Shown here: positions 10,037-15,136 of the stretch, in pieces
Numbering within the stretch: the stretch's first letter is position 1
Layout of the letters: each line of letters opens with the position of its first letter
Origin: Bacteroidota bacterium
GTDB taxonomy: Bacteria; Bacteroidota; Bacteroidia; Chitinophagales; Saprospiraceae
Assembly: GCA_030147525.1 (NCBI GenBank)
Contig: JASBVF010000016.1
Span: forward strand, 62,001 to 126,000
DNA: 64,000 nt
Direction: 5' to 3'
The notes under the pieces: model-generated
The model's database searches: none
The model's input: only the letters and a program-made list of their open reading frames with translations
What the model was told of the DNA's origin: nothing
Made by a program: the position numbers and the translations under genes

Positions 10037-10423
10037 TCAGTCATATTTTACCTGTTTCGCCCTTTGCCAATCCCGGTAATTTAACCAAACGCTCATGACC
10101 ACACTGACGATAAAAACGGCCAGTGTGCCGTAGTTAACCAGGTCGTGCGGCAGATCGGCCCCTGTGATTTCAAGAATCAGAAAATGGATGTAAGAGTTAC
10201 TGGTGTCGTGGTAGCCGAGTTGCCGCCGTACATCCCAGTGCCAGTCGGTGCAGAGGCAGTAGCCCCAGCCGTACCAGATACCCAGCCCGAACCACGACAG
10301 CGTCGTAAGCAGCAGCGTGGCCAAGTTCCATTTTCTCAGCTTCGCAAACATCCACCCGAACGTGTTGAAAAGCGTCCAGGAGGTGTGAAAAACGAAGAAG
10401 AAATAGTCGAGGAAGTGAAGCAT
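10037..10423 (-). CDS. DUF2784-like integral membrane protein
   Basis: The 128-residue protein has about four hydrophobic helices and matches my recollection of the DUF2784 family: an N-terminal FHTSWTLFNTFGW segment with an early His, then GLGIWYGWGYCLCTDWHW in the middle, followed by SYIHFLI. Function is unknown. It is divergent from the aromatic amino acid operon, with about 140 bp between its start and the first promoter element of that operon. The family assignment was made from memory of short motifs and is less certain than the membrane topology. Confidence 0.7.
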   Translation of the reverse strand: MLHFLDYFFFVFHTSWTLFNTFGWMFAKLRKWNLATLLLTTLSWFGLGIWYGWGYCLCTDWHWDVRRQLGYHDTSNSYIHFLILEITGADLPHDLVNYGTLAVFIVSVVMSVWLNYRDWQRAKQVKYD

Positions 10424-10538
10424 TTGACAGCAAATTTTAATGGTGAAACGGGTTTCTGAAAAGACAGTCTGCCCCGGAATATGAACAAAATCCAGCCTTT
10501 GGCGGTCGTAATTTTTTTTAATCGGATTTCGCTCTGCC

Positions 10539-10570
10539 CTTGCATCCCAAAAATTAATCGCCTAAGTTTG
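10539..10570 (+). promoter_or_regulatory. Promoter of the phenylalanine/tyrosine operon
   Basis: CTTG (10539-10542) and TAAGTTTG (10563-10570) are separated by 20 bases, matching the Bacteroidota -33/-7 pair (TTTG, about 19-20 bp, TAnnTTTG) with an exact -7. The first leader peptide starts 19 bp downstream, so the leader RNA would have a very short untranslated start. Confidence 0.6.
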
Positions 10571-10588
10571 TCGCACAATCAGTCAATC

Positions 10589-10642
10589 ATGAACCTGTTT
10601 TCGAACACATATTTTAGCTTTTACTTTTACGGTACTCCGTAA
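10589..10642 (+). CDS. Phe/Tyr leader peptide 1
   Basis: This 17-codon frame encodes MNLFSNTYFSFYFYGTP. It has four Phe and three Tyr codons, six of them within the last ten residues. A terminator follows 46 bp after its stop. Its end (YG, Thr, Pro, stop, then GGGAC) is the same as that of the second leader peptide 95 bp downstream, so the two modules look like a duplication. It resembles the pheL leader of enteric bacteria in composition. It should sense charged tRNA-Phe and tRNA-Tyr together, which suits an operon making both amino acids. Confidence 0.8.
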   Translation: MNLFSNTYFSFYFYGTP

Positions 10643-10687
10643 GGGACGGCTGAGTTTTGTTGTTCAACAGGTTTGAAAATAAAATTT

Positions 10688-10717
10688 AAAAGTCCCGCTT
10701 GACGGGGCTTTTTTTTT
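10688..10717 (+). terminator. Terminator of attenuator 1
   Basis: A 10-bp stem, AAAAGTCCCG (10688-10697) against CGGGGCTTTT (10703-10712) with one G-T wobble and a 5-base loop, is followed by an unbroken T run to 10717. Confidence 0.8.
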
Positions 10718-10736
10718 GCCTTAAACGCAAGTAACC

Positions 10737-10799
10737 ATGTTCCCTAACCACGCAAACTATTTCTTTTTTGGTTTTTATTTTTTCTATGGTTCGCCATGA
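10737..10799 (+). CDS. Phe/Tyr leader peptide 2
   Basis: This 20-codon frame encodes MFPNHANYFFFGFYFFYGSP, with seven Phe and three Tyr codons; nine of the last thirteen residues are Phe or Tyr. It starts 20 bp after the terminator of module 1 and ends 39 bp before a second, stronger terminator. The stop is followed at once by GGGACTTT, as in module 1. The composition is so extreme for a 20-residue frame, and so well matched to the operon's products, that a regulatory role is very likely. Confidence 0.85.
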   Translation: MFPNHANYFFFGFYFFYGSP

Positions 10800-10838
10800 G
10801 GGACTTTGGTTTTGTGTTTTTCAAAAAATGAAAAATCG

Positions 10839-10868
10839 AAAAAAGTCCCGCACCGCCGGGACTTTTTT
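10839..10868 (+). terminator. Terminator of attenuator 2
   Basis: A 12-bp stem, AAAAAAGTCCCG (10839-10850) against CGGGACTTTTTT (10857-10868) with a 6-base loop; the T run forms the end of the 3' arm. It lies 18 bp before the pheA start codon. Confidence 0.85.
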
Positions 10869-10886
10869 GTTTTAAAAAACTTCGAA

Positions 10887-11786
10887 ATGAACGTAACGAC
10901 AACGATAACCGAAAATTCAGAAGCGCCCGCCAGTATCGAGCCTGCCAGGCTTCGGGTCGCCATCCAGGGCGTGGCAGGCGCATTTCACGACATTGCCGCC
11001 CGGCAGTTTTTCGGCCACGACCGGGTGGAGATCATTCCTGCTCACACCTTCGAAGAGCTGGTGTTTTTGGTTGAAAATAATGGCGCCGACACCGGCCTCA
11101 TGGCTATCGAAAATACGCTCGCCGGCAGCATCATGAACAACTACCGGCTACTCTACCACGCCGGTTTGCAGGCCACCGGCGAGGTTTACCTCCGCATCCA
11201 CCAAAATCTGATGGCCCTCCCCGGCCAGTCCGTCGAAGACTTGACCGAAGTTTACTCCCACCCGATGGCAATTGCCCAGTGCGAAGTCTGGTTCAGGCAG
11301 TATCCGCACATCCGCCTCATAGAAGCGGAGGACACGGCCCTGAGTGCCCGCATGATCCGGGAAGGTCAGCTTTCCCACGCAGGTGCCATTGCCAGCGACC
11401 TTGCTGCCAGCATGTACGGCCTCGAAATCCTGGCTGGCAGTATTGAAACCAACAAAAAAAATTACACCCGCTTCCTGGTTTTAGAGCGTCAGCAGGAAGC
11501 TGCCGCCCGCACCGGTACCAACAAAGTTTCGATTTGTTTCGCCGTTTCCCACGAGGTCGGTAGCCTGCACCGGGTGCTGAGCGTGATGGCCGCCTACGAG
11601 CTGAATTTGACCAAAATCCAGTCCACGCCCATCATGGGAAAGCCGTGGGAATATTTCTTTTTCGTCGATTTCGTGTGCGCTGGGCAGATGGACTGGAAGC
11701 AAGCCGTTGAGGCCATCCGTCCGCTGACGGCCGATTTGAAAGTGCTGGGAGCTTACCCCCAGGGAAACCGCCAATTCAGAGATTGA
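10887..11786 (+). CDS. pheA: Prephenate dehydratase
   Basis: The enzyme converts prephenate to phenylpyruvate, the Phe-specific step. ATG 10887 was chosen because an upstream in-frame TTG would place the terminator inside the coding region. The catalytic domain starts RVAIQGVAGAFHDIAARQFFG and contains MAIENTLAGSI, YSHPMAIAQC and the catalytic motif TRF (NYTRFLVL) near residue 195. An ACT domain follows (HEVGSLHRVLSVMAAYELNLTKIQSTP); the usual Phe-binding ESRP is replaced by QSTP, so feedback by Phe may be altered. There is no chorismate mutase domain; that is fused to the DAHP synthase of the same operon. It is the first gene after the two attenuators. Confidence 0.93.
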   Translation: MNVTTTITENSEAPASIEPARLRVAIQGVAGAFHDIAARQFFGHDRVEIIPAHTFEELVFLVENNGADTGLMAIENTLAGSIMNNYRLLYHAGLQATGEVYLRIHQNLMALPGQSVEDLTEVYSHPMAIAQCEVWFRQYPHIRLIEAEDTALSARMIREGQLSHAGAIASDLAASMYGLEILAGSIETNKKNYTRFLVLERQQEAAARTGTNKVSICFAVSHEVGSLHRVLSVMAAYELNLTKIQSTPIMGKPWEYFFFVDFVCAGQMDWKQAVEAIRPLTADLKVLGAYPQGNRQFRD

Positions 11787-11866: not shown

Positions 11867-13117
11867 ATGAATTTTAAAATGAGTGACCAACCGATCATAC
11901 AACCCGCCAAGCGGCTCGGCAACGTGCAGGAGTACTATTTTTCAAAAAAACTCCGTGAAATCGCTGACATGCGTAGCCGTGGCATCGATGTGCTGAACCT
12001 TGGCATCGGCAGTCCGGACCTGCCGCCTTCGCCGGAGGTGACGGCCCTGCTCGGAGAGCAGAGTTGCCTGCACGACGTCCACGCTTACCAGCCCTACCTC
12101 GGCGTACCCGAATTGCGGCAGGGCTTCGCTGCGTGGTACCGCCGTTTTTTCAATGTGGAACTGAATCCCGGCACTGAAATTCTGCCGCTCATCGGCTCGA
12201 AGGAGGGCATCGTTCACATCGCCATGACCTTCCTCGAAGCAGGCGATCAGGCCCTCGTGCCCAACCCCGGCTACCCGTCGTACCGGGCTGCCTCCGAACT
12301 GGCGGGCGCTGAAGTTGTGGAGTACAAATTGCAGGAGGAAAATGGCTGGCAACCCGACTTGGCGGCACTCGAAAAACTGGATTTGACCCAAGTCAAGATC
12401 ATGTGGGTCAACTACCCGAATATGCCCACCGGTGCCCGTGCTACCCGGCAGTTTTTTGAAAATTTGATCGCCTTCGGCAAGCGCCATAAAATCCTGATCG
12501 TCAACGACAACCCCTACAGTTTCATCCTCAATGACCGGCACCTGAGCCTGCTCTCCGTATCCGGGGCGAAAGAGGTGGCGCTTGAGTTGAACTCCCTCAG
12601 CAAGTCGCACAACATGGCCGGCTGGCGGGTGGGCATGTTGGCGGGCCGGGCGGACTACCTCTCGCATGTCATCCGTTTCAAAAGCAACATGGATTCCGGC
12701 ATGTTCAAGCCCGTGCAACTGGCTGCGGCGCTGGCCCTGCAGGCCGACGAGAATTGGTACGAAAACCTGAACGCCATTTACCGCAAACGCCGGGAGCGGG
12801 TGCATGAGCTACTCGGCCTGCTCGGTTGCACGTGGGAATCGGATTCGATGGGCATGTTCGTTTGGGCAAAAATCCCGGCAGGGTGGAGCAACGGCATCGC
12901 CCTGACGGATGCGATCCTCGAAAAAGCACATGTTTTCATCACCCCCGGCGGCATCTTCGGCTCGCAGGGAGATGGCTACATCCGGGTATCATTGTGCAGT
13001 CGGGAGGAAGTGTTCGAAGAGGCCATTTCAAGGATAAAAATGCACAGCGATTTGAACAGGGAACCCCATTCCTCAAAACCATCAAACCATCACGCCATCA
13101 AACCATCCACCGTATGA
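11867..13117 (+). CDS. PLP-dependent class I/II aminotransferase (aromatic operon)
   Basis: The enzyme probably transaminates phenylpyruvate and hydroxyphenylpyruvate to Phe and Tyr. Fold type I features are present: LGIGSPDLPPS, PNPGYPSYRAASELAGAEVV, the Asn/Asp/Tyr pocket in VNYPNMPTGARAT and VNDNPYSF, the PLP lysine in SLSKSHNMAGWRVG, and the Arg near the end in GYIRVSLC. The length of 416 residues is normal apart from the tail: the last 16 residues (SSKPSNHHAIKPSTV) are encoded by an 8-bp word repeat. A second possible start is ATG 11879. Its stop overlaps the tyrA start by 4 bp. Confidence 0.88.
   Translation: MNFKMSDQPIIQPAKRLGNVQEYYFSKKLREIADMRSRGIDVLNLGIGSPDLPPSPEVTALLGEQSCLHDVHAYQPYLGVPELRQGFAAWYRRFFNVELNPGTEILPLIGSKEGIVHIAMTFLEAGDQALVPNPGYPSYRAASELAGAEVVEYKLQEENGWQPDLAALEKLDLTQVKIMWVNYPNMPTGARATRQFFENLIAFGKRHKILIVNDNPYSFILNDRHLSLLSVSGAKEVALELNSLSKSHNMAGWRVGMLAGRADYLSHVIRFKSNMDSGMFKPVQLAAALALQADENWYENLNAIYRKRRERVHELLGLLGCTWESDSMGMFVWAKIPAGWSNGIALTDAILEKAHVFITPGGIFGSQGDGYIRVSLCSREEVFEEAISRIKMHSDLNREPHSSKPSNHHAIKPSTV
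13071..13110. repeat. In-gene octamer repeat encoding the aminotransferase tail
   Basis: Five octamers in a row: CCTCAAAA, CCATCAAA, CCATCACG, CCATCAAA, CCATCCAC. They encode most of the low-complexity C-terminal tail of the aminotransferase and end 3 bp before the tyrA start codon. Confidence 0.65.
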
Positions 13118-13953
13118 TTATCACCATCACCGGCATCGGACACATCGGCGGCAGCATGGCCATTACGCTGAAGGAGAACGGCTTTGCCGGGCACATTATC
13201 GGCGTGGATGCCAACACGGAGAGCCTCGACAAAGCGCTGCGCCGCCGCATCATCGACGAGGCGTGCAGCCTGGAGGAGGGCGTTGAAAAAGCAGACCTCG
13301 TCATCCTCGCCACCCCGGTGGATGCGATGCTGGAACTGCTGCCACGGATTTTGACTTTGGTAAAAAAACAGGTCGTGATCGACGTCGGCTCGACGAAAGA
13401 ATTGCTGTTGGAAAAAGTAAAAAACCACCCCAACCGGAAGCATTACGTGGCGACCCATCCGATGGCGGGAACCGAACATTCCGGCATCGAAGCGGCCATC
13501 CCAAAGCTGTTCGAAGGCAAGTACACCGTGCTCTGCGACGTGATCGACAGCGCTCCCGAAGCAGTGGCACGGGTGGAAAGCCTGTACCGCTCGATGAACA
13601 TGAAAATCGCTTACCTGAACGGCAAGGAGCACGACGTTCACACAGCCTACGTGTCGCACATTTCACACATCAGCTCCTTCGCCCTGGCGCTGACGGTGCT
13701 GGAAAAAGAGCGGGACGAGCAGCAGATTTTCGAGCTGGCAAGCAGCGGTTTCGCCTCCACGGTGCGCCTGGCGAAAAGCTCGCCCGGTATGTGGACGCCC
13801 ATTTTCCGGCAAAACCGGGACAACGTACTCGACGTGCTTGACGAGCACATCAGTGTGCTCTCCAAGTTCAGGAGCCTTTTGATTAAAAAAGATTTCGACC
13901 GCTTCCACCAACTGATGGAGGAGGCGAATGCAATAAGAAAAATTTTACCGTAA
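13114..13953 (+). CDS. tyrA: Prephenate dehydrogenase
   Basis: The enzyme oxidises prephenate to 4-hydroxyphenylpyruvate, the Tyr-specific step. The N-terminal Rossmann motif is ITGIGHIGGSMA, with an Asp (VDAN) at the end of the second strand favouring NAD. Substrate and catalytic parts include ATPVDAMLELLP, DVGSTKE, ATHPMAGTEHSG and VSHISHISSFALAL with the conserved histidines. It is 279 residues long, a monofunctional form without ACT or mutase domain. The start ATG overlaps the aminotransferase stop (ATGA), so the two are translationally coupled. It shares the two upstream attenuators. Confidence 0.93.
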   Translation: MIITITGIGHIGGSMAITLKENGFAGHIIGVDANTESLDKALRRRIIDEACSLEEGVEKADLVILATPVDAMLELLPRILTLVKKQVVIDVGSTKELLLEKVKNHPNRKHYVATHPMAGTEHSGIEAAIPKLFEGKYTVLCDVIDSAPEAVARVESLYRSMNMKIAYLNGKEHDVHTAYVSHISHISSFALALTVLEKERDEQQIFELASSGFASTVRLAKSSPGMWTPIFRQNRDNVLDVLDEHISVLSKFRSLLIKKDFDRFHQLMEEANAIRKILP

Positions 13954-14011: not shown

Positions 14012-15136
14012 ATGAAATTTCAACCCGTTTTTGAAAAAACGACCCGCCCCGTGCTCATCGCCGGGCCGTGCAGCGCAGAAACCGAAGAGCAGGTACTCCA
14101 AACCGCCCGTGAGTTGGCGGCGCAGAACATCGACCTCTTCAGGGCAGGCATTTGGAAACCCCGCACCCGGCCGGGCGCTTTTGAAGGCGTCGGGACGGAA
14201 GGCTTGCGGTGGCTGCGCCGGGTGAAACAGGAAACCGGCCTGAAAACCACCACCGAAGTCGCCAACACGCAGCATGTGTTCGAGGCCCTGAAATACGGCA
14301 TCGACGTGCTCTGGATCGGCGCCCGCACGACGGTGAACCCGTTCTCGGTGCAGGAAATTGCCGATGCACTCAGCGGCGTGGACATTCCGGTTTTAATCAA
14401 AAATCCTGTGAACGCCGACCTGAAACTTTGGATGGGCGCCATTGAGCGCATTCACAAAGTTGGTATCCAGCGCATCGCCGTCGTGCATCGTGGATTCAGC
14501 CAGCACGGTGATTCGAGGTTTCGTAATGCGCCGCTCTGGCAGTTACCGATCGAATTGAAACGCCGCTACCCGGATCTGCAAATTATCTGCGACCACAGCC
14601 ACATCTGCGGCCGGCGGGATATTCTCGGCACTATCGCTCAGCGATCGCTCGACCTGAACTACGACGGGCTGATGACTGAGGTGCATCCCCGCCCCGACGA
14701 GGCATGGAGTGATGCCGAACAGCAGGTGACGCCGTTCCAGTACCAGGAAATGGTATCGCACCTCACTGCACGCCTTTCCACGACGGACGATGTAGAATTC
14801 CTGCATTCGCTGGATACTTTGCGCCATCAAATCGATGACGTGGATGAGCAATTGCTGCAATTATTGGGCTCCCGGATGAAACTGGCGGAGCAGATTGGTG
14901 AGTATAAAAAACGGAACAACATTTCCATTTTCCAGCCAAGTCGCTGGAATGAAATTCTGGAACATTCCGTCGAAAAAGGAAAGAAACTTGGGCTGAGCGA
15001 ATCGTTGGTGGCTGTTGTGCTGCGGGCGATTCACCAGGAATCCATCGTGCATCAGGAGCGAATCATGAATGAAAACCGGCCTGATTTGGTGAAAGATGAG
15101 CAGGAAGGGGATGAATTGGCGGCGGTGGTTCGATAG
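14012..15136 (+). CDS. Bifunctional DAHP synthase - chorismate mutase
   Basis: The N-terminal domain (about residues 1-260) is a DAHP synthase of the KDO8P-synthase-like type, the first step of the shikimate pathway, with VLIAGPCSAET, RAGIWKPRTRPGAFEG, LIKNPVNADLKLW, VHRGFSQHG and DHSHICGRRD. The C-terminal domain (about 275-360) is an AroQ chorismate mutase: LRHQIDDVDEQLLQLLGSRMKLAEQIGEYKKRN split around residue 290. ATG 14012 was preferred to an upstream ATG at 13958 because the conserved sequence starts there. Fusing the first pathway step to the mutase lets the mutase domain or its ligand control carbon entry; this arrangement is common in Bacteroidota. Confidence 0.93.
   Translation: MKFQPVFEKTTRPVLIAGPCSAETEEQVLQTARELAAQNIDLFRAGIWKPRTRPGAFEGVGTEGLRWLRRVKQETGLKTTTEVANTQHVFEALKYGIDVLWIGARTTVNPFSVQEIADALSGVDIPVLIKNPVNADLKLWMGAIERIHKVGIQRIAVVHRGFSQHGDSRFRNAPLWQLPIELKRRYPDLQIICDHSHICGRRDILGTIAQRSLDLNYDGLMTEVHPRPDEAWSDAEQQVTPFQYQEMVSHLTARLSTTDDVEFLHSLDTLRHQIDDVDEQLLQLLGSRMKLAEQIGEYKKRNNISIFQPSRWNEILEHSVEKGKKLGLSESLVAVVLRAIHQESIVHQERIMNENRPDLVKDEQEGDELAAVVR

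Follow-up and report, generated by a model that had tools for sequence, protein, structure and literature searches.

How is an operon for phenylalanine and tyrosine controlled when two aromatic-rich leader peptides, each with its own terminator, stand one behind the other in front of it? The question is raised by a region at about 10540-10870, plus strand, of a 64-kb stretch of DNA from a Bacteroidota bacterium of the Saprospiraceae (hereafter the window), upstream of the pheA operon. An earlier note on this DNA had proposed a duplicated attenuator in series for an operon making both amino acids, and this has held up as the best reading, with the operon confirmed by Pfam. The evidence set out below makes it very probable that two ribosome-mediated transcription attenuators lie in series on one transcript, with readthrough as the predicted default where translation fails, and points to a conserved two-stage attenuator of the aromatic operon that works through the ribosome.

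The two modules (M1 and M2) each comprise a leader open reading frame (ORF), a hairpin designated P1, an anti-arm that can pair with the 5′ arm of the terminator, and the intrinsic terminator itself (T1 or T2). The ORFs, the terminators, the covariation of the arms and of P1, the footprint geometry and the single promoter motif come directly from the sequence and its comparison with relatives. The parts are as follows.

10540..10570, plus strand: putative promoter of Bacteroidota type, with −33 region TTG at 10540-10542 and −7 element TAnnTTTG, here TAAGTTTG, at 10563-10570; sequence motif
10589..10642, plus strand: leader peptide ORF 1, 17 residues, 7 Phe/Tyr codons, MNLFSNTYFSFYFYGTP then stop; translation, conserved in relatives
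10628..10641, plus strand: P1 hairpin of module 1, from the last Tyr codon to the stop, UACGG-UACU-CCGUA; fold, covariation and de novo consensus
10643..10647, plus strand: anti-arm 1, GGGAC, partner 10692-10696; covariation, folds and consensus
10643..10696, plus strand: antiterminator hairpin 1, an extended internal helix rich in A+U, closed by GGGAC:GUCCC; truncated-transcript fold
10688..10717, plus strand: intrinsic terminator 1 with U run (stem 10688-10712); pattern scan and fold
10737..10799, plus strand: leader peptide ORF 2, 20 residues, 10 Phe/Tyr codons, MFPNHANYFFFGFYFFYGSP then stop; translation, conserved in relatives
10785..10798, plus strand: P1 hairpin of module 2, UAUGG-UUCG-CCAUG; truncated-transcript fold and covariation
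10800..10807, plus strand: anti-arm 2, GGGACUUU, partner 10842-10849; covariation and folds
10839..10868, plus strand: intrinsic terminator 2 with U run; fold

The description in the earlier note of one promoter and of two leader peptides of 17 and 20 residues with 7 and 10 Phe/Tyr codons proved accurate in both counts and coordinates, as did its placing of a terminator behind each leader and of a GGGAC directly after each stop codon (10643-10647 and 10800-10804), complementary to the 5′ arm of its own terminator. By sequence and fold, anti-arm 1 pairs with GTCCC at 10692-10696 over 5 bp, and anti-arm 2, GGGACTTT, with AAAGTCCC at 10842-10849 over 8 bp. T1 was found on the plus strand by pattern scan and by fold; the same scan caught the stem of T2 on the minus strand only, and on the plus strand T2 folds as a stem followed by UUUUUU. 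TAnnTTTG is the promoter consensus of Bacteroidota, and the copy at 10563 is the only one within 10401-10890. A scan for promoters of the sigma-70 type gave just a weak match on the minus strand, and the Bacteroidota motif was used instead. What the earlier note overlooked was the P1 hairpin between the last Tyr codon and the stop, the long internal helix of the antiterminator, and the absence of a detectable protector strand in the family to which the window belongs.

Conservation of the modules upstream of pheA

Regions upstream of pheA were taken from 80 named contigs and from the family genomes with a PheA match (104/150), the family assignment of the latter resting on their placement and on the named contigs. 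Removing 6 duplicates and 6 loci with less than 300 nucleotides (nt) upstream from 183 loci plus the window left 172 regions, 100 from the family (window included) and 72 named; G039, with a fragment match only, was left out. A strict detector, which required an aromatic ORF together with an intrinsic terminator whose 5′ arm is matched by an anti-arm, found at least one module in 84/100 family and 58/72 named loci (142/172 in all), and none in 172 reverse complements or in any of three Markov sets of 172. Two modules in series were present in 31/100 family and 13/72 named loci. A looser detector gave at least one module in 88 family and 58 named loci and two in 31 and 14, with 1/172 in each of two controls; by either detector two modules occur in 34/100 and 14/72 loci, and the detectors agree in 28 and 13. 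The view in the earlier note that two full modules are unusual must accordingly be given up for this lineage, whilst its suggested search of relatives for one or two modules found both states. Conservation of the peptides among relatives, whose lack had been set beforehand as a refuting result, is present, and extends to a genome of the same genus (G061, L126), which has two modules.

A model of the module, R1, returned the two known modules in the window's own genome (E 2.6e-11 and 5.8e-9; next best E 0.16) and matched 31/61 family genomes at E 0.01. Seven matches away from pheA were inspected (L224-L230), and two look plausible: L230, upstream of asnA, and L225 (G035:C86), where an aminotransferase-tyrA pair, assigned by Pfam and on a different contig from pheA, has in front of it a Tyr/Phe-rich frame that bears a P1-like hairpin, with no ATG seen and GTG a possible start. 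The remainder (L224, L226, L227, L228 and L229) resemble gene ends or ordinary terminators.

Pairing, spacing and the P1 hairpin

The covariation check proposed earlier came out positively, since the anti-arm and the terminator arm vary together across modules. Over 60 modules the pairing score of each anti-arm with its own terminator arm averages 17.3; exchanging the anti-arms between modules, with the best arm re-chosen at each swap, gives 13.1 ± 0.3, and the highest value in 200 swaps is 14.3. Pairs unlike GGGAC/GTCCC include GGAACCA:TGGTTCC (L092) and GGAGCTACT:AGTAGCTCC (L094), and a further co-varying pair is GTGGAGCT:AGTTCCAC. Alignment A1 took in 52 of the 60 modules and alignment A2 22 of the 30 gene-distal ones, omitting near-copies and diverged or stop-shifted modules. 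With the 22 gene-distal leaders cut before the terminator 3′ arm, RNAalifold predicted both the antiterminator and P1 without guidance, and 5 of 11 pairs show compensatory changes.

The fold, spacing, Phe:Tyr-ratio, hairpin-position, stop-position and protector analyses cover modules with a GC-rich arm (148/186; 32/38 in the phylum sample and 23/29 for hisG, both described below). In transcripts cut at the terminator 5′ arm the antiterminator has a mean probability of 0.93 and exceeds 0.5 in 143/148, compared with 0.23 for a shuffled arm, and in full transcripts the mean is 0.21 (30/148), a truncated-versus-full comparison that is partly circular in that the anti-arm was picked as the best-pairing stretch. 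For the truncated transcripts of the window the probabilities are 0.998 and 0.967, and antiterminator 1 has a z score of −3.95, with none of 200 shuffles as stable. Antiterminator and intrinsic terminator are thus predicted to be mutually exclusive. Saprospiraceae-type modules also share a U run 13-16 nt after the stop codon (0.60-0.82 T, 67 modules), which in module 1 of the window pairs with an A-rich stretch before the terminator to give the long internal helix.

The spacing between codons and arm bears on the nature of the sensor. From the last aromatic codon to the start of the anti-arm the distance is 11.3 ± 3.0 nt, falling within 6-16 nt in 143/148 modules; taking all modules the figure is 158/186, against 31% with shuffled spacers. 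The stop codon, by comparison, lies anywhere from 108 nt downstream of the arm start to 6 nt upstream of it (148 modules). The front edge of a ribosome lies about 11-12 nt beyond the codon in its A site, and therefore a ribosome stalled at the last aromatic codon should leave the arm free whilst an advancing one should cover it. For the footprint, PMC3641672 cites 12-15 nt from the P site. This ruler is the strongest sign that the ribosome is the sensor. Phe or Tyr makes up 7/17 and 10/20 residues of the predicted peptides, and the signals would be charged Phe-tRNA and Tyr-tRNA. Conversely, the leader geometry of many genomes could serve as a natural ruler for the front edge of the ribosome. 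That a protein or ligand controls the terminators, the ORFs being incidental, we consider extremely improbable: many non-ribosomal switches do share such terminator/antiterminator pairs, but aromatic ORFs recur in the same place across very diverged DNA, their last aromatic codon is held at a tight distance from the anti-arm, and neither the window nor 19 other loci contain an Rfam family at gathering score.

P1 is a five-pair hairpin formed by the last Tyr codon, three further codons and the stop, and it abuts the anti-arm. The module 2 hairpin appears in the truncated transcript; with the whole of module 2 present, the minimum-energy fold does not contain it. Covariation was examined in 71 Saprospiraceae-type modules, picked regardless of pairing. 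The Tyr wobble base and the wobble base of the third codon on form a Watson-Crick pair in 66/71 (35.4 expected), and the next two stem positions do so in 65/71 (56.3 expected) and 50/71 (32.3 expected), each value reached in 0/5000 permutations. Three control position pairs, involving both adjacent wobble bases of the loop and the Tyr codon that comes before, were at chance in the same 71 modules. The other two pairs, U-A and A-U, are dictated by the Tyr and stop codons and are almost uninformative, and a separate count of 96.9% paired comes from modules pre-selected for at least 4/5 pairs and is not relied on. In 9 of 19 two-module genomes, including that of the window, the third base of the Tyr codon differs between M1 and M2, and in 7 of these 9 the Watson-Crick partner is kept in both modules; base composition of the genome is therefore not the cause.

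Could P1 simply follow from selection on the peptide end Tyr-Gly-x-Pro, with no RNA element of its own? We regard this as very unlikely. Gly-x-Pro is indeed the commonest end pair (40/71), and the hisG leaders described below do without such a hairpin (4/23, shuffled 0.10), which shows that attenuators have no general need of one. Against it, however, the synonymous third bases co-vary, and where the amino acids change, paired exchanges often preserve the stem (Ala-x-Ala, Glu-x-Ser, Asp-x-Ser and Thr-x-Val), although Ala-x-Pro and Val-x-Ser do not. By eye, the hairpin also persists where the stop has moved into the loop or the frame has shifted (L084 M1, L102 M1, L087 M1, L088 and L104 M1). 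Finally, a hairpin lies beside the anti-arm in 67/89 family modules and in 25/32 phylum-sample modules, against 12-16% in shuffles, and the latter carry differing peptide ends. P1 is thus best read as an RNA element, whose function may be to pause the polymerase, to support the antiterminator coaxially, or both.

Default state, mechanism and history of the pair

A classical attenuator of 1:2, 2:3, 3:4 layout has a strand 1 that protects against antitermination, and this was sought as pairing of the anti-arm with the upstream leader relative to a shuffled leader. Over the 89 modules of the family set no such strand was detected (mean excess −0.25, p 0.09), and the window scores 8.0 (shuffled 10.1) and 11.5 (shuffled 10.7). 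In E. coli an untranslated leader terminates, since strand 1 takes strand 2 (superattenuation). Super-attenuation is mentioned in the available text of PMC1183508. Here the anti-arm has no detectable upstream competitor in the window's family, P1 and antiterminator can coexist and the truncated transcript folds as antiterminator, and for these reasons an untranslated leader is predicted to read through, that is, to be on by default. If so, the response to failed translation would be reversed relative to E. coli.

In the mechanism that we propose, the Phe/Tyr-rich leader of each module would be translated while RNA polymerase runs ahead, P1 perhaps holding the polymerase paused until the ribosome arrives. 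A short supply of either tRNA would stall the ribosome at an aromatic codon with its front edge just short of the anti-arm, so that P1 and antiterminator could form side by side and the polymerase would read on. Full expression would require readthrough at both terminators, so that leak would be multiplied down and the response made steeper. What we infer is that transcripts terminate and ribosomes stall in the cell, that the two stages multiply, that readthrough is the default and that the polymerase pauses. We would suggest, tentatively and with some doubt, that pheA leaders, at least in the window's family, have a distinct layout in which a hairpin abuts the antiterminator strand and a protector is lacking, so that only a ribosome finishing the peptide turns the operon off, and that the series pair has long been kept as a multiplicative filter, perhaps against leak at the stop codon.

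The genes that would be controlled are the following.

10887..11786, plus strand: pheA, prephenate dehydratase; Pfam PDT 4e-55, weak ACT match of 21.8 bits (cut-off 27)
11867..13117, plus strand: class I/II aminotransferase; Pfam Aminotran_1_2 7e-58
13111..13953, plus strand: tyrA, prephenate dehydrogenase; Pfam PDH_N 3e-36, PDH_C 7e-24
14015..15136, plus strand: 3-deoxy-D-arabino-heptulosonate 7-phosphate (DAHP) synthase fused to chorismate mutase (aroF/aroG-type); Pfam DAHP_synth_1 3e-38, CM_2 6e-25

Given this Pfam-assigned content, the operon serves the synthesis of both Phe and Tyr and also supplies the shared pathway. A divergent DUF2784 gene lies at 10037-10423 on the minus strand, and both promoters are presumably located between this gene and leader 1.

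The two complete modules would be carried on one transcript, with no internal TAnnTTTG promoter. Among the 44 two-module loci this motif is found within 110 nt upstream of the M1 ATG in 35, in 26 of those at 25-33 nt before it, and in none of the gaps between modules (median 25.5 nt), where other promoter types are possible; among single-module loci it precedes the module in 57/98. Pairing of the arms is stronger within a module than across modules in 37/44 loci. Cross-talk between modules, such as M1 anti-arm with T2, was considered and set aside: the arms are partly interchangeable (both are GGGAC/GUCCC in the window), yet within-module pairing is better in those 37.

In 32 Saprospiraceae-type two-module loci the nearest relative of M1 is the M1 of another genome in 32/32 and that of M2 is another M2 in 27/32, and in none is M1 closest to its own M2. 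The doubling in these loci is therefore old, with later loss of one or the other, and M1 and M2 appear to be largely separate old lines, although the greater likeness of M1 to M2 within a genome (score 30.0) than between genomes (23.5) tells against a clean split. Mapped on a PheA tree with 101 rows, 34 of which have two modules, the two-module state requires 12 changes; shuffling gives 28.6. Two modules also occur, with another type of peptide end, in a Bacteroidales group of metagenome-assembled genomes and in Marinifilaceae/Marinilabiliales lines, and these may be separate doublings. Lone modules sit either in the far, M1 place (L003, L105, L103 and L118 in full view) or near pheA, and so either module can be lost. 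In L105 and L003, where M1 alone is left, short palindromic repeats of the CCCACGA...TCGTGGG type occupy the module 2 place between terminator 1 and pheA.

Both the 12 changes on the tree and the loss of either module would suit the idea that only one module still works whilst the other is decaying and survives by chance. We find this unlikely: in both modules of the window the ORF is intact, P1 is present, the arms match and the terminator has its U tract, the arms pair best within their own module in 37/44 loci, and the M1-M1 and M2-M2 affinities indicate long maintenance of both. It is also quite unlikely that one module senses Phe and the other Tyr, to form an AND gate. The ratio of Phe to Tyr does differ slightly in the family set (M1 1.63, M2 1.28), but the order is reversed in the named set (1.05 and 1.31), the two residues are mixed throughout both peptides, and Tyr is the last aromatic residue of both M1 and M2 in 23/31 family loci; codon make-up gives no support to separate sensing. 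Two modules of the same specificity thus remain the preferred reading.

Basal readthrough of the trp attenuator is 10-15%, mainly from ribosome release at the stop codon, according to the available text of PMC1183508. In the window the stop lies right against the anti-arm, a layout that for this reason is most open to stop-codon leak, and the idea is that a series pair multiplies the leak down. In the family set the stop precedes the anti-arm in 21/23 M1 modules versus 27/43 single ones (p 0.019) and in 18/23 M2 modules (p 0.27); in the named set it does so in 4/5 M1 (p 0.16) and in 1/12 M2 versus 17/42 single modules (p 0.044, in the opposite direction), all p values being uncorrected and ignoring relatedness. 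With outcomes mixed across sets, support for the leak hypothesis from stop position is not claimed.

Several results weigh against the two-stage, default-on reading, in addition to the circularity in the fold comparison given above. The strict detector found no module in 16/100 family and 14/72 named loci, the latter being 11 of a Prolixibacteraceae clade, 2 rumen Bacteroidales and L043. In a phylum sample of 60 pheA loci, taken from among the matches listed, 38/60 have one module and none has two, and the wrong-strand control gave 1/60; modules were present in 34/40 loci from the same order or class and in 4/20 of the more distant ones. A small protector-like excess is seen in the named set (+0.73, p 0.006, 59 modules), the phylum sample scores +0.54 (p 0.26, 32 modules), and the absence of a protector may thus fail outside the window's family. 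In the named set P1 lies beside the anti-arm in 30/59 modules only. A pausing role for P1 is not supported by the Y−1 G+1 pause consensus, which is weakly enriched at most at a fixed distance: the frequency of the Y-G dinucleotide after the stop is 0.21-0.24 at offsets 9-10 and 0.22-0.30 at 15-17 (67 modules). Cross-module pairing is the higher in 5/44 two-module loci and tied in 2. Lastly, the permutation tests include no model of relatedness or shared descent. The Prolixibacteraceae rows (L056, L058, L063-L065, L068-L071, L074 and L077-L079) show no pheA module in 11/13; the module calls in L056 and L058 are weak and probably false, and this clade appears to be without a pheA attenuator.

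Other leaders and known systems

Leaders of this general kind are found before other amino-acid genes. Of 53 hisG loci used for comparison, 29 carry a single His-rich module (36 under a looser codon count) and no locus carries two. The loci L296-L348 include His-rich leaders with terminator and matching anti-arm upstream, and the window's own genome (L311, C9 near 52570) has the His-rich leader MNFINNHIHHHHFSSPQSGEQLWF with the same parts. The codon-to-arm distance is looser there (6-16 nt in 13/23), and P1 as a general part of attenuators was rejected, with a hairpin at that place in 4/23 (shuffled 0.10); since this check failed to bear out the extension, the hairpin layout is claimed for pheA leaders only. 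In G021 (L230/L351, G021:C5), two Asn-rich leaders in series, MNISSNNNNINYNEYFFKRSVG and MNTNFKNRFNNNNNNNLYSRFPSGY, lie at L230 281-590, each before a terminator, and the gene downstream, from 727, is asnA (Pfam AsnA 1e-101). Among 22 AsnA loci tandem Asn leaders are present in G021 only, a single one in L294, and none in 20. G021 asnA is a candidate second case of a tandem attenuator with the same codons, and after this example it is conceivable, if rather less than even in our estimate, that same-codon attenuators in series are a wider habit of the lineage. Bacteroidota thus seem to have leaders for hisG and some asnA genes besides pheA.

Attenuation in textbooks is that of enteric bacteria, and here pheA attenuation would operate in Bacteroidota, a phylum that makes weak use of Shine-Dalgarno sequences, with its parts differently arranged. 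In pheL-pheA of E. coli and Salmonella, a Phe-rich leader peptide and competing antiterminator and terminator control prephenate dehydratase. The resemblance is visible in Rfam, where Phe_leader (RF01859) is the best match to module 2 (36.3 bits, E 1.1e-4, 301-base search) and also matches module 1 (23.8 bits, E 0.066); both scores fall below the gathering threshold of 55, with many broken pairs in the module 2 alignment. A covariance model could annotate these leaders, for which none of the 20 sources scanned, the window and 19 related loci, has an Rfam match at gathering score. Unlike pheL, the window has Tyr as well as Phe codons and two modules, its hairpin lies beside the anti-arm and does not overlap it, and no protector is detected in its family. 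Tandem riboswitches and tandem T-boxes are likewise serial copies on one transcript and bind ligand or tRNA directly, whereas the sensor in the window would be the translating ribosome.

The closest tandem arrangement is that of Salmonella mgtCBR, where two leader attenuators respond to different signals, mgtM to ATP and mgtP to proline, with effects reported as additive and stem-loops said to be unlike intrinsic terminators (PMC3641672, from the text available). The likeness to the window lies in a serial pair of short leader ORFs that both act on the transcription of a single operon, and the difference in that the window's modules share the same codons and have intrinsic terminators. The same source mentions metE, an example of the serial riboswitch or T-box copies above, as having two terminator sites (PMC3641672), and a paper on msrD uses the wording 'two attenuators' (PMC10314930, in the part available). 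For Bacteroidota, strong clues that leader peptides attenuate amino-acid operons have been reported in Flavobacterium psychrophilum, whose pheA and hisG 5′ elements are structured, transcribed, conserved in other Flavobacteriaceae and without Rfam hits; the available text gives neither leader sequences, mechanism nor tandem arrangement (PMC9723704). All 16 loci of group f5 in our phylum sample, probably Flavobacteriaceae, have one module. In Bacteroides thetaiotaomicron, leader-peptide-like small ORFs occur in long 5′ untranslated regions, the example in the available text being BT_4401, a hypothetical protein, with phenylalanine unmentioned there (PMC7366714). The Bacteroid-trp motif (RF01692) is a candidate cis-regulatory RNA of Bacteroidota whose name suggests trp genes (PMC2864571, in part); it does not appear among the Rfam matches obtained around the modules at E 10 or below.

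In our searches of the open-licence literature we saw no report of two leader-peptide attenuators of the same specificity in series. Already in print, so far as these partly available sources go, are leader-peptide attenuation with a conserved pheA 5′ element in F. psychrophilum and tandem attenuators with two signals in mgtCBR. What appears to be new here is the two-stage design of a single specificity, as a variant of known leader-peptide attenuation, and the two-module loci offer natural constructs for measuring the product rule of attenuators in series.

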